Source of the DNA: an uncultured bacterium
GTDB lineage: Bacteria > Bacteroidota > Bacteroidia > Bacteroidales > Muribaculaceae
DNA: 64,000 bases
Reading direction: 5' to 3'
Assembly (NCBI GenBank): GCA_945612775.1
Contig: CALZAF010000001.1
Coordinates: 1-64,000 of the forward strand
Within the stretch, counting starts at the first letter, position 1, and each line of letters begins with the position of its first letter. Shown here in pieces: positions 10,474 through 14,641 of the stretch. The notes under the pieces were generated by a model that did not search any database, was not told the origin of the DNA, and saw only the letters and a program-made list of their open reading frames with translations. The position numbers and the translations under genes are program-made.

Positions 10474-10509
10474 CAAAAAAACGAGACCAAGTGGTCTCGT
10501 TTTTTTTTT
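10474..10509. terminator. Bidirectional terminator between glgP and the LuxR gene
   Basis: A GC-rich 8-bp stem (ACGAGACC/GGTCTCGT, 10481-10500) with a 4-base loop is flanked by an A run on the left and a long T run on the right. It can terminate glgP on the plus strand and the LuxR operon on the minus strand. Confidence 0.88.
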
Positions 10510-10538: not shown

Positions 10539-11081
10539 CTATTTAGGGGCTATTATGCCATTCATCATGGCGTAGAAAGTCAAGCCCGAAACGCTTCGAA
10601 TACCAAGTTTGTTCGTAATATTTTTTCGGTGGGTGAGAACGGTGTTAATGCTTATACCCAGACTCTCTGCTATTTCCTTATTGATCATTCCCGAGGCTAT
10701 GAGGCGAAGCACATCTATTTCGCGTTGGCTCAGTTCGTCTTGATGGTCAACAGCATTGCGTTCTATGTTAGCGAACCAGGCATTTATCGAATCGATAATT
10801 GTGCTTTCGTCGTCGTTAGCGCACAAAACATTAGCTTCGTCGTCGCGAGGAGAAGATGTAACTGTTATTACTTTTTGGCGGCGAGGCAAAAAGAAATCGA
10901 GATGTTTCACAAATAGTTCGGGACTCGTAAAATAGAAGTCAAACAAATCACTCCCCACATCCGGTACTTGACCAAGTGCGGAGAATACTTGGGGTGATAT
11001 CGAAAACGCATCCTCAAGTATATGTTTTATGCCCAACGCTTCAAGCGTGTTGCGCATTATTATAGCCACTCTGTAAGTCAT
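10539..11081 (-). CDS. LuxR-type regulator with degenerate receiver (180 aa)
   Basis: DNA-binding response-regulator-like protein. The C-terminal third is a clear LuxR/FixJ helix-turn-helix (about residues 115-175: LSQREIDVLRLIASG, NKEIAESLGISINTV). The N-terminal region has the length and secondary-structure rhythm of a receiver domain, but the acidic pair is replaced by MRN and the usual phospho-aspartate position reads as Ser or Tyr in FDFYFTSPE, so ordinary phosphorylation is unlikely. It begins 5 bases after the stop of the hemerythrin-like gene, which suggests translational coupling and a functional pair. Targets are unknown. Confidence 0.82.
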   Translation of the reverse strand: MTYRVAIIMRNTLEALGIKHILEDAFSISPQVFSALGQVPDVGSDLFDFYFTSPELFVKHLDFFLPRRQKVITVTSSPRDDEANVLCANDDESTIIDSINAWFANIERNAVDHQDELSQREIDVLRLIASGMINKEIAESLGISINTVLTHRKNITNKLGIRSVSGLTFYAMMNGIIAPK

Positions 11082-11086
11082 GATAT

Positions 11087-11785
11087 TCAGTCGGTTACGG
11101 CATCTATGGCTACTACTATTGGGTTAAGCATGCGCTCGCGGATGCGATTGTTCTGGTTGATGTCTTTCTTCAAGCCGAACAACGCTATCAATACGGCATG
11201 CGCCAAATTGCTGTCGTAAGTTCCGGAGAGGTGCATTACAAGCATATTCAGCAGGTCGCTTATTTTAGATTCTATCGAATCTTCCTGTATGGCTTTTGCT
11301 GCCGAATCATTCTTGGCATTTGCCTCAAGGCGGGTACTTCCGGAGTGCATTAGCAACTTAGGGAATAGCTGCTCTTTATCATCATTGATGCGCGCCATAA
11401 GTTCTTCCTTTACTTCAAGAAAGAATTTATATATAATTGACAGAGAAGTGTTTGAATTGTTGCTTTTTGCCATCAAGAAGTTAAAGTGGCGCTCGATATT
11501 AGGAATCAGATAATGTTCGTAGTATGCATTGGTCTGTTGCAAGTAGCTGACTATTTTATCGGCACTAAAACGGTTGTGCACATCACTTGGCACATACTCT
11601 TCGTTGATAAAAGTATTCAAGATGGTAGTAAGAAAGTCTTTGTCGATGCCTTTCTCATCGCATACGCGTGCTATCGTTTTATCGCCCACGCCTAATGCTA
11701 TCCCAAATCGGTTGAACACAGCAATTAGCGTAGGGTCGTTAACCAGCAAATCGCAAAGTTTAGAGTCGTAGTTCACTATCTGCAT
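11087..11785 (-). CDS. RIC/hemerythrin-like protein with degenerate metal site (232 aa)
   Basis: Resembles the ScdA/YtfE (RIC) family, which repairs iron-sulfur clusters after nitrosative or oxidative stress. An N-terminal DUF542-like part (about residues 5-45, CDLLVNDPTLIAVFNRFGIAL) is followed by a helical hemerythrin-like region (about 75-230). By eye the key residues are lost: no CC pair after FGI, N86 where TH(x)Y is usual, R132 where the LFP helix normally has His, and N212 and R216 in the last helix where H and E are expected. It may therefore be a sensor or scaffold rather than a di-iron enzyme. It lies 21 bases from the cyclo-ligase gene and 5 bases from the LuxR gene. The alignment is mental, so the family call is moderate. 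Confidence 0.68.
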   Translation of the reverse strand: MQIVNYDSKLCDLLVNDPTLIAVFNRFGIALGVGDKTIARVCDEKGIDKDFLTTILNTFINEEYVPSDVHNRFSADKIVSYLQQTNAYYEHYLIPNIERHFNFLMAKSNNSNTSLSIIYKFFLEVKEELMARINDDKEQLFPKLLMHSGSTRLEANAKNDSAAKAIQEDSIESKISDLLNMLVMHLSGTYDSNLAHAVLIALFGLKKDINQNNRIRERMLNPIVVAIDAVTD

Positions 11786-11806: not shown

Positions 11807-12376
11807 CTATGGTTTAATGTAAATGTGCGAAGCGCTTATCACCTTGTCCATGCGTATGTCGTGGTTGCAATGTGGCACCGAATCCACTATCTGGCAGTCG
11901 AAAGCCACACCTATGAGTTTGGTGGCATCGTCTTTATTGCTCAACAACCTGTCGTAAAACCCCTTTCCGTGCCCCATGCGGTTACATTCCACATCGAATC
12001 CCACTCCAGGCACTATGACAAGCTGAATTTCGCTCAAATTCACAGGGGAACAATCGAGCGAAGGTTCACATATCCCATATTTGCCTATGTCGAGCTTGTC
12101 AGGAGAGAATTCTAATAGCAGCAAGTCATCGCCTTTAACTCTCGGTAGCACTACAGTTTTAGATTGAGCCCATCGCTTTATGGCCTCGTGTGTGCCAAGT
12201 TCATTAGGCATAGAGTGATAGCACATTATGGTAGTAGCCGACTGAAATTCGGGCAGGCTCTCGATAATCTGCATCACTTTGTCCGATTCTGCTTTGCGAC
12301 AATCGAGGCTTAGCTGTGAAATCCTTTTCGCAATTATGCGGCGTAATTCAGTTTTGCTTGCTGCTGTATTATTCAT
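11807..12376 (-). CDS. 5-formyltetrahydrofolate cyclo-ligase (189 aa)
   Basis: ATP-dependent conversion of 5-formyl-THF to 5,10-methenyl-THF in folate one-carbon metabolism. The family hallmarks are an N-terminal basic helix (KTELRRIIAKR), YHSMPNELGT (about residues 53-62), VIVPGVGFD (about 120-128) and the nucleotide-binding GHGKGFYDRLL (about 135-145). Length fits the family. The start codon overlaps the stop of the S41 protease gene upstream by 8 bases, so the genes are translated from one mRNA. Nothing unusual is seen. Confidence 0.95.
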   Translation of the reverse strand: MNNTAASKTELRRIIAKRISQLSLDCRKAESDKVMQIIESLPEFQSATTIMCYHSMPNELGTHEAIKRWAQSKTVVLPRVKGDDLLLLEFSPDKLDIGKYGICEPSLDCSPVNLSEIQLVIVPGVGFDVECNRMGHGKGFYDRLLSNKDDATKLIGVAFDCQIVDSVPHCNHDIRMDKVISASHIYIKP

Positions 12377-13994
12377 CTTCTGGCAGGATAGGGAAAGCGG
12401 TTTTATGCTTATTGATAGCCTTTAATGCGGTTTCTATATCCTTGTCGTTGCGGTTATAGATAGGGTAGAAGGCATCGTTGCCATACAGGTCGCGAGCCAT
12501 GAGAGCTTTGATTTGTGTCAAAATCAGGTTACGCGATTGGTTGATGTAGTACCAACGAGCAGGAACACCGTTTTGTGCCGCAAATGTCACGAAATCATAT
12601 AGAAGAGCATCGTTGTTTGGCAGTACGCGCAAGAATTGCTTGTAGTCGCTTAGCTTCATATACTGTTCTCGATTTCTATCGGCAAGGTTATATGCAAACT
12701 TGTTGATAAGGCCTGCATTTGCTACTGCTGCATAATATGAAGTGAAGCCAACAGTGTCGCGAGGTACAAATATGTCGGGCACAATACCACCGCCACCATA
12801 CACTGTGCGACCGCTTAAGGTCTGATAAACTTTGCTCTTATCTATCTTCATGCTGTCGGCGGTATAAAGCTCTCCGCTGTCGAAGCGGTTGATAAGTTCA
12901 TTGTCGTAGGCAGCATTTTTCTTCGTGTAATCTTTCTGAATTGAACGGCCCGAAGGAGTGTAATAGCGCGCAATGGTCATACGCACCGCGCTGCTATCTG
13001 GCAAGGTGAATTGGCGTTGCACAAGGCCCTTGCCAAATGAGCGGCAACCTATTATGAGGCCTCGGTCATTATCTTGAATAGCTCCCGCAAAAATTTCGCT
13101 GGCACTCGCCGAGAATTCGTCGATTAGCACCACAAGTTCTGATTCTTGAAATGATCCGTTGCCATCGCTCCACACTTCTGAGTCGTTGCGCTTATCTCGG
13201 CTCTTGGTATAGACGATGAGCTGGTCGGATGGGAGGAACTCGTTAGCCATAAGAATAGCCATTTCCATGATGCCACCGCCGTTGCCACGCAAATCGACGA
13301 TGTAATTCTTTGCACCTTCGCTCTTAAGATTTATTAGCCCCATAAGGAACTCGTCGTAGGTGGTGCGGCTAAACTTATTAACCTTGATATATCCCGTAGA
13401 TTTATCCATCATATATGCCACATCTACCGATTTTACAGGTATGTCGCCACGAGTGACATTAAATGACTTTAATTTCTTAGCGTGTCCGCGCTTGATGCCA
13501 AGTTTAACTATGCTTTCACGAGCACCGCGTAGGTTAGAACGAACATCGGTGTCCTTGATATTTGGACCTGTGAAAACAGAATCGTTGATTGTTACAATAC
13601 GGTCGCCAGCCATGATGCCTGCTTTTTCGGCAGGTCCTTCGGGAATCACTTCTACCACGTGAATTGTGTCGCTGTTAACTATAAACGAGATGCCTATGCC
13701 GCTAAACACGCCTTCAATATCCTCGTTGGCTTCACGAAGGGCATCCGCATTTAGGTAGGTAGTGTGTGGGTCGAGGTTGCTTAGCAGCTCGGGTATAGTA
13801 AGTTCCACCAAGTCGCTAATCTTCATAGTATCTACATAGTCGTCGGCAATAAGATTAAGAATCATATTGAGTTTTCGGTCGTGGTCAGCAATGAACTTGT
13901 TACTTGCAAATCGGGTGCCCACAAACACACCTAAAACCACCGACACGGCTATGATTAATGGTAACCAAACAACTGGTTGTTTCGACGAACTCAT
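12369..13994 (-). CDS. S41 family C-terminal processing peptidase (541 aa)
   Basis: Periplasmic serine protease of the CtpA/Prc type. It has a signal anchor (about residues 8-26, WLPLIIAVSVVLGVFVG), a PDZ domain (about 85-170, GIGISF and AGIMAGDRIV) and the S41 catalytic domain, where the Ser lies in FSASASEIF and the Lys in RSFGKG. A C-terminal extension of about 130 residues follows the core, as in Bacteroidetes homologues. It sits between the dCMP deaminase gene (34 bases) and the cyclo-ligase gene (8-base overlap). The substrate is unknown. Confidence 0.93.
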   Translation of the reverse strand: MSSSKQPVVWLPLIIAVSVVLGVFVGTRFASNKFIADHDRKLNMILNLIADDYVDTMKISDLVELTIPELLSNLDPHTTYLNADALREANEDIEGVFSGIGISFIVNSDTIHVVEVIPEGPAEKAGIMAGDRIVTINDSVFTGPNIKDTDVRSNLRGARESIVKLGIKRGHAKKLKSFNVTRGDIPVKSVDVAYMMDKSTGYIKVNKFSRTTYDEFLMGLINLKSEGAKNYIVDLRGNGGGIMEMAILMANEFLPSDQLIVYTKSRDKRNDSEVWSDGNGSFQESELVVLIDEFSASASEIFAGAIQDNDRGLIIGCRSFGKGLVQRQFTLPDSSAVRMTIARYYTPSGRSIQKDYTKKNAAYDNELINRFDSGELYTADSMKIDKSKVYQTLSGRTVYGGGGIVPDIFVPRDTVGFTSYYAAVANAGLINKFAYNLADRNREQYMKLSDYKQFLRVLPNNDALLYDFVTFAAQNGVPARWYYINQSRNLILTQIKALMARDLYGNDAFYPIYNRNDKDIETALKAINKHKTAFPILPEDE

Positions 13995-14028: not shown

Positions 14029-14463
14029 TTACTTATCTATGTCTATTCTAATGCATTGCACTCCGGCACGCTCAAGCAGGTCGATGCCATCGTGTATGCG
14101 ATATAGTTCATTATACACTACACGCTTTATGCCCGATTGGATAATTAGCTTTGCGCACTCAATGCATGGCGAAGTGGTTACGTAGAGTGTGGCGCCATTG
14201 CTGCTATTGCCGCTTCGGGCAACTTTGGTGATGGCGTTAGCCTCGGCGTGAAGTACGTAAGCCTTGGTATTGCCGTCTTCGTCTTCGCACACATTTTCAA
14301 ATCCCGATGGCGTGCCATTGAAGCCGTCGGAGATTATCATTTTTTCTTTCACAATTATCGCACCCACTTGGCGGCGACGACAATATGAATTTTCAGCCCA
14401 TATCCTTGCCATACGCAGATATCGGGCATCGAGAAGGTGTTGCTTGTCAGAACAATTATCCAT
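14029..14463 (-). CDS. dCMP deaminase family protein (144 aa)
   Basis: Zinc-dependent deaminase of the deoxycytidylate/ComEB type, supplying dUMP for thymidylate synthesis. The zinc site is complete: HAEANA (about residues 72-77, with the catalytic Glu) and PCIEC (about 99-103). RRRQVGAIIV and GFNGTPSG are typical of dCMP deaminases rather than cytidine or guanine deaminases. It heads a minus-strand run with the S41 protease and cyclo-ligase, and has a -7 element about 75 bases upstream. Confidence 0.9.
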   Translation of the reverse strand: MDNCSDKQHLLDARYLRMARIWAENSYCRRRQVGAIIVKEKMIISDGFNGTPSGFENVCEDEDGNTKAYVLHAEANAITKVARSGNSSNGATLYVTTSPCIECAKLIIQSGIKRVVYNELYRIHDGIDLLERAGVQCIRIDIDK

Positions 14464-14545: not shown

Positions 14546-14555
14546 ATGAAAATAA

Positions 14556-14584
14556 AAATAAGGAGCATCAAATGCTCCTTATTT
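14556..14584 (-). terminator. dcp terminator
   Basis: A perfect 13-bp stem (AAATAAGGAGCAT and its complement) with a 3-base loop, followed on the minus strand by TTTTATTTT. It lies 57 bases beyond the M3 peptidase stop codon. Confidence 0.85.
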
Positions 14585-14641
14585 TATCAACAAATATTGC
14601 AAATTTAAGTTTATTTTCAATATAAATTTGTTGTTCGATGG

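Follow-up and report, generated by a model that had tools for sequence, protein, structure and literature searches.

We examined a pair of adjacent genes in a 64,000-nucleotide stretch of DNA from an uncultured Muribaculaceae bacterium of the order Bacteroidales (assembly GCA_945612775.1, contig CALZAF010000001.1, positions 1 to 64,000; hereafter the window). Both genes lie on the reverse strand. The first (11,087–11,785) encodes a protein of 232 residues that resembles the repair of iron centres (RIC) proteins YtfE and ScdA, and the second (10,539–11,081) encodes a LuxR-type regulator of 180 residues. The open reading frames (ORFs) agree with the spacing given in a first-pass annotation of the sequence, with 5 bases between the stop of the first gene and the start of the LuxR gene. 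That annotation had described a RIC-fold protein that lacks metal ligands and is coupled to a LuxR regulator with no phosphorylation residues, and conserved pairing in the examined loci, together with gene fusions, bore out the description.

The likeness of the first protein to ScdA and YtfE held up in an NCBIfam match, in a profile of relatives and in an AlphaFold model. The RIC family TIGR03652 matched it at 37.1 bits (E 2.8e-9), far under the equivalog cut-off of 204.7, and the Pfam ScdA_N match (15.8 bits) was likewise under its cut-off of 32.5. Pfam Hemerythrin (PF01814) gave no match to the window protein, and a PIN_8 match in Pfam was at chance level. Among relatives, the hemerythrin HHE family PF01814 matched none of 28 ligand-poor proteins (group A, to which the window protein belongs) and all 10 ligand-bearing proteins scanned (group B). 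A search of the Protein Data Bank with the single sequence returned no RIC match; a profile of the 28 group A proteins had Staphylococcus aureus ScdA as its sole match at E ≤0.1 (E 1e-6 and 1.9e-6), with similarity spanning residues 3–155 of the profile, and a profile of the 10 group B proteins retrieved both YtfE and ScdA. For the model of the first protein (predicted local distance difference test score, pLDDT, 85.9; predicted template-modelling score, pTM, 0.81), the best Foldseek match was YtfE at E 5.7e-4, with YtfE chains at template-modelling scores of 0.34–0.51. VIA comparison with YtfE and ScdA gave Z 13.2–13.7 over about residues 48–228; unrelated or designed helical bundles score up to Z 11.8, and helical-bundle matches under about Z 13 may be chance. 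Because this margin is small, the fold assignment leans on profile and structure jointly, and by the two together the first protein is predicted to have the four-helix RIC fold.

We then compared the metal-binding places across groups. The iron ligands of YtfE are H84 and H204, H129 and H160, and the bridging E133 and E208, according to the available part of a published description (PMC9268430). In the local alignment with group B, five of the six are matched directly; H84 falls outside it, and its place was located through the invariant His of group B. At the corresponding places the window protein has Asn86 (11,528–11,530, for H84), Arg132 (11,390–11,392, for H129), Asp136 (11,378–11,380, for E133), a Glu in the H160 column, Asn212 (11,150–11,152, for H204) and Arg216 (11,138–11,140, for E208), all on the reverse strand; apart from Asn86 and the Glu, these were placed by the YtfE alignment and the group comparison. 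The H160 column sits in a variable loop in the alignment of relatives. Four of these residues (N86, R132, N212 and R216) had been named in the first-pass annotation, and D136 and the Glu add to its list. The 102 unique group A proteins lack His at positions 86 and 132 and Glu at 216 throughout, leaving aside one with a gap at 86 and one that could not be read at 216; R216 is present in 101 of them, D136 in 100 and N212 in 88. The full set of YtfE ligand types, six in all, is found in 52 of 53 group B proteins and in 16/16 proteins of a set labelled mid (the fused protein L206 is counted with the fused set, described below). A predicted structure with an intact di-iron site had been named as a result that would refute the annotation; the sequence answers this, as the ligands are not there. 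Since the replacements are conserved, with Arg216 in 101 proteins, the ligand-poor condition of group A reads as a maintained state. By sequence, the members of group A are expected to be free of metal.

Other conserved residues set the groups apart or unite them. His100 (11,486–11,488) and His185 (11,231–11,233) occur in 101 and 98 of the 102 group A proteins, whereas group B has Lys, His or Asn at the former and mostly Tyr at the latter (49/53). Cys42 (11,660–11,662) is common to all groups (A 98/102, B 53/53, mid 16/16); kept though the RIC cysteine pair is gone, it may be a family-wide thiol switch. The CC motif was indeed absent, as annotated, with L31-G32 at its place in the profile alignment to ScdA, but this is not special to the window protein: almost every protein in each group, the ligand-bearing group B included, has L-G at positions 31–32. 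In one group A protein, L051 (genome G027), the loop before the third helix is cut down and the regulator is still the next gene; four genomes of the same genus (G098, G067, G084 and G047) gave a similarly short match in the family-sample search.

The helix-turn-helix of the regulator is normal, as first described: Pfam GerE (PF00196) matched residues 116–170 (10,572–10,736) at E 2e-18, and GerE was found in 29/29 relatives scanned. Residues 1–108 (10,758–11,081) form a predicted receiver-like domain. The Pfam receiver domain did not match the window regulator; in its model (pLDDT 92.5, pTM 0.68), this part matched CheY- and NtrC-type receivers at Z 11.3–12.6, and a LuxR helix-turn-helix was matched as well. 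The acidic-pair and phospho-acceptor places were set from the predicted strands of the model and, together with the Lys, from what we take to be the NarL pattern. By this placement the window regulator has M9/R10 for the acidic pair, S53 for the phospho-acceptor and no Lys at 85–89. The partners of group B mostly have Glu-Pro at the acidic-pair place (37/45 and 26/45), and their phospho-acceptor Asp is replaced by Asn in 38/45 and present in 5/45; group A partners (n = 101) have no conserved pair at positions 9–10. Silencing of the receiver looks general in the hemerythrin-LuxR family, with the acceptor Asp not lost in all group A members. The most conserved part of the regulators in their alignment is the helix-turn-helix.

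To describe neighbourhoods, we reduced 209 protein records to 175 unique proteins by dropping 34 identical ones (for example, L102 has the protein of L028), and counted a regulator as next when an ORF matching the LuxR profile lay in the same orientation fewer than 400 bases downstream. The regulator was next in 162 and fused in 12, and one gene was cut by a contig end; homologues separated from the regulator, which the first-pass annotation had asked about, were not seen in this set. By group, 101 of the 102 group A proteins had the regulator next and the other lay at the contig edge; group B comprised 45 next and 8 fused, all 16 mid proteins had it next, and four fused proteins were relatives of group A. 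The genes of 153 of the 162 adjacent pairs lie between 30 bases of overlap and 40 bases apart. Overlaps of 142–274 bases with the partner in L007, L028, L067 and L132 were taken as over-long ORF starts; five group A loci first seemed partnerless, and allowing long overlaps gave each a partner. All 12 fused proteins are 292–319 residues long, which leaves no room for a receiver-like domain. In the six that were inspected whole, the helix bundle is followed directly by the helix-turn-helix, and GerE was confirmed by Pfam in the fused L203 and L037. That the pair is kept together or fused in relatives suggests a real gene switch. The four fused relatives of group A (L203–L206, in G458, G316, G212 and G397) have 292–298 residues, combine a ligand-poor hemerythrin fold with a LuxR helix-turn-helix, and all come from one family of the order (f16). 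We rejected their classification as half-length hemerythrin domains: the profile match had ended early, and the whole proteins hold a complete ligand-poor domain.

In the tree of first proteins, group A and its four fused relatives form one clade (106/106, support 0.998). Support is 0.569 for group A without the fused forms and 0.757 for group A with mid and three B-labelled proteins. The group A regulators likewise form one clade of 101 with one outsider, mid_L187 (support 0.94). Proteins were assigned to A, B or mid by differences in score; L192, L194 and L196, labelled B, fall outside B in the tree, where mid is not one clade. On the simplest reading of a single clade, by parsimony, the di-iron site was probably lost once, in the ancestor of group A. 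Judged by sequence, group A is a ligand-poor branch of a wider Bacteroidales hemerythrin-LuxR system and a conserved variant of a known sensor-regulator pair. The first-pass annotation had argued that degeneracy in both proteins speaks against chance. This argument is weakened: group B, which has the six ligands, likewise lacks the cysteines and has a silent receiver, so these traits were probably inherited and make no second coincidence.

The first protein was matched in 179 of 198 genomes of a family sample, 68 of which carry a closer, group A-type match by E-value (cut between G154 and G179, the latter being group B by profile, L033). Across an order sample of 295 genomes, the group B profile matched 212 and the group A profile 205, the two profiles overlapping; the group A profile scored 277 bits or more in 19 genomes, and fused relatives are present in another 4. 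No relative was found in a single-sequence scan of genome contigs; an alignment-based contig scan gave 98 confirmed relatives, of which 80 were kept. The record titles of these 80 group A loci often name Muribaculaceae, many being metagenome bins, and others name Prevotellaceae, Porphyromonadaceae, Coprobacter, Barnesiella, Heminiphilus, Bacteroides and, once, Lachnospiraceae. Within the window's genome, a 94%-complete assembly, no second copy was seen with the query or the group B profile, so group A seems to work there without group B, unless assembly gaps hide a copy.

With moderate confidence, we favour the reading that direct contact with a metal-free RIC-fold protein controls the LuxR partner, that the receiver serves as a docking piece, and that the pair descends from a ligand-bearing one. 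The helix bundle would set the state of the regulator on contact, the phosphorylation-silent receiver domain would be the docking surface, and the LuxR helix-turn-helix, presumably acting at DNA targets, would provide the output; the ancestor would be a ligand-bearing hemerythrin-LuxR pair of Bacteroidales. We infer contact and docking from the pairing, the fusions and the lack of a receiver domain in the fusions. The observation in the first-pass annotation was right, and its interpretation as a signalling arrangement is partly supported.

Several observations weigh against this reading. The examined loci were best matches and chosen places, not a random draw, and weaker matches were left out. 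Distances between the two proteins are correlated (r 0.71 in 101 group A pairs and 0.92 in 45 group B pairs, with 0/500 permutations as high in each), which speaks for the reading, but a correlation of this kind would be expected from shared species history alone. In group A, N86 (78/102) and R132 (80/102) are less fixed than the other replacements, His is retained at 212 in 11/102, Glu at 136 in 2/102 and His in the H160 column in 4/102, which means that the pocket does not amount to a single, strictly conserved site. The group A case unread at 216, the shortened L051 (192 residues), has Cys there when aligned whole; the fused L206 has Lys at 216, and the other fused forms have Gly at 136. 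The lack of acidic pair and phospho-Asp claimed for the window regulator stands, but does not extend to all its relatives: 57/101 group A regulators have Asp at the phospho-acceptor place (53), and 51/101 have Asp at 11, just past the acidic-pair place. With the acceptor Asp present in half of the regulators in group A, some relatives could still be phosphorylated. Finally, the fused group B forms are not one clade in either tree, but at low support (0.482 and 0.787), which leaves it uncertain how often fusion took place.

Other explanations compete for the same evidence. Group A might bind metal elsewhere, at the opposite end of the helix bundle, through His100 and His185 and perhaps Asp191. 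The near-constant presence of both His residues in group A as against group B fits this idea, and the predicted helix limits place them toward the same bundle end, away from the lost site; two His and one Asp are, however, few for a stable site, and H185 is Leu in the fused L206, and we hold this reading to be unlikely. Equally unlikely, in our estimate, is that group A modulates the ligand-bearing pair, for instance by forming mixed dimers or through competition at its DNA sites. In the family sample, 57/68 group A genomes have two or three matches to the query (the extra matches being partly classified), which would accommodate such tuning, as would the strong conservation of the helix-turn-helix. 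The other 11, however, are matched once; they include the window's genome and G005 (the group B profile also gives one), and some of these 11 assemblies are incomplete.

The remaining two explanations are much less probable. One of them takes the first protein for an Fe-S repair protein that handles iron through a small number of ligands, with the LuxR gene beside it by accident, and draws on the RIC fold and the weak RIC profile score; ligand loss, the absent CC motif, constant pairing and fusion to a DNA-binding domain all oppose it, and we give it little credence. Decay of a gene on its way out is scarcely credible at all. Ligand loss taken alone could be read in this way, as could the shortened proteins of L051 and its genus, but a search reading through stops found no internal stop in any of the 68 group A rows of the family sample (one stop reported for G005 in the order-sample search is absent from its shorter match here and so lies at the end), and the replacements are conserved in one clade that spans several families.

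Upstream of the pair, on the same strand, lie genes for a 5-formyltetrahydrofolate cyclo-ligase (11,807–12,376; TIGR02727, 159.1 bits against a cut-off of 84.9), a CtpA/Prc-type C-terminal processing protease (12,369–13,994; TIGR00225, 277.5 bits, cut-off 218.6) and a dCMP/cytidine deaminase-family protein (14,029–14,463; PF00383, 2.8e-25). The deaminase-family protein is over the Pfam dCMP deaminase cut-off and under those of both its NCBIfam matches. Cyclo-ligase was found upstream in 93/102 group A loci and in none of the group B (0/53), mid (0/16) or fused (0/4) loci; the protease was upstream in 94/102 group A loci, and the deaminase gene was seen in 54/102, many loci being too short to reach its position. 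The folate-enzyme context is not universal, because nine group A loci are without cyclo-ligase: the protease is still present in L058 and L090, the loci of L055 and L128 begin only a short way from the gene, and L175 and L177–L180 come from other families. A terminator-like stem-loop lies past the regulator gene (10,475–10,506; detected on the forward strand, near-symmetric), and another on the reverse strand between an upstream peptidase gene and the deaminase gene (14,555–14,585); such sites are no rarer in shuffled sequence (2 in the region, 4.1 on average in shuffles). By their arrangement, cyclo-ligase, protease, deaminase and the pair may form a five-gene unit.

Candidates for the signal would be a small molecule at the former metal site, lined by Arg, Asp and Asn, an alternative site around His100 and His185, or the shared Cys42. 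It is conceivable, though we regard it as doubtful, that a metal-binding sensor turned metal-free once while still driving a phosphorylation-silent LuxR regulator by contact, and that the old di-iron cavity (Arg216, Arg132, Asp136 and Asn) now binds a small anionic metabolite. Our boldest guess is a folate- or pyrimidine-linked ligand for group A, made because the pair follows a folate enzyme and a nucleotide-metabolism deaminase in most loci examined.

The two branches offer a natural experiment, in which one has the six iron ligand types and the other does not, both are kept with a regulator, and both are fused in some genomes. Their comparison would reveal the contribution of iron to hemerythrin-LuxR (CdhR-like) signalling, and would tell if a receiver domain can be driven by an adjacent protein instead of by phosphate. 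Caution is also in order, since hemerythrin-LuxR pairs in gut Bacteroidales include a branch that, from its residues, is not expected to bind iron. A ligand-less branch of such pairs was not described in the literature searched, which comprised open-licence papers.

Among known systems, the closest parallels are hemerythrin-domain genes that form an operon with a regulator in Porphyromonas gingivalis (PG1236-PG1237, CdhR) and Bacteroides thetaiotaomicron (BT0519-BT0520), and the same pair fused in Prevotella intermedia (PIN17_RS10465), as reported in the part of the source available to us (PMC10434189). Iron depletion raises the P. gingivalis and B. thetaiotaomicron pairs about 7-fold and 16- to 20-fold (PMC10434189), and CdhR represses mfa1 and luxS (PMC4082711). 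As there, the window locus has a hemerythrin-fold gene directly before a LuxR-type gene, with fused relatives, and group B shows the same two arrangements; by architecture and these published descriptions, group B may well be this iron-starvation pair. Its genomic context hints weakly in the same direction: a DUF2023 gene, a neighbour in B. thetaiotaomicron (BT0516), is present in 13/38 genomes searched, in only 2 of which (G249 and G257) its distance from the group B gene is under 1 kb. Unlike PG1236 and BT0519, which are annotated as hemerythrin-domain proteins, the window protein has neither the Pfam Hemerythrin match nor the ligand set, and its pair, unlike theirs as described, follows folate-enzyme and protease genes. 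The first-pass annotation had thought of redox or iron status as the signal; the iron link in the available text of PMC10434189 concerns hemerythrin-domain pairs of other species and not the window protein.

With Escherichia coli YtfE and S. aureus ScdA the window protein shares the RIC fold, but it has no CC motif, H84, H129, H160, H204 and E208 are all replaced, and it scores far under the RIC cut-off and is tied to a regulator gene. The window regulator has the receiver fold and GerE helix-turn-helix of NarL/FixJ-type response regulators, and differs from them in having no acidic pair, phospho-Asp, Lys or Pfam receiver match. VpsT, a receiver-LuxR protein that binds cyclic di-GMP and was among the structural matches, combines the same two domains and is controlled by a ligand, not by phosphate. 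Unlike VpsT, the window regulator seems to take its input from the partner protein encoded next door.
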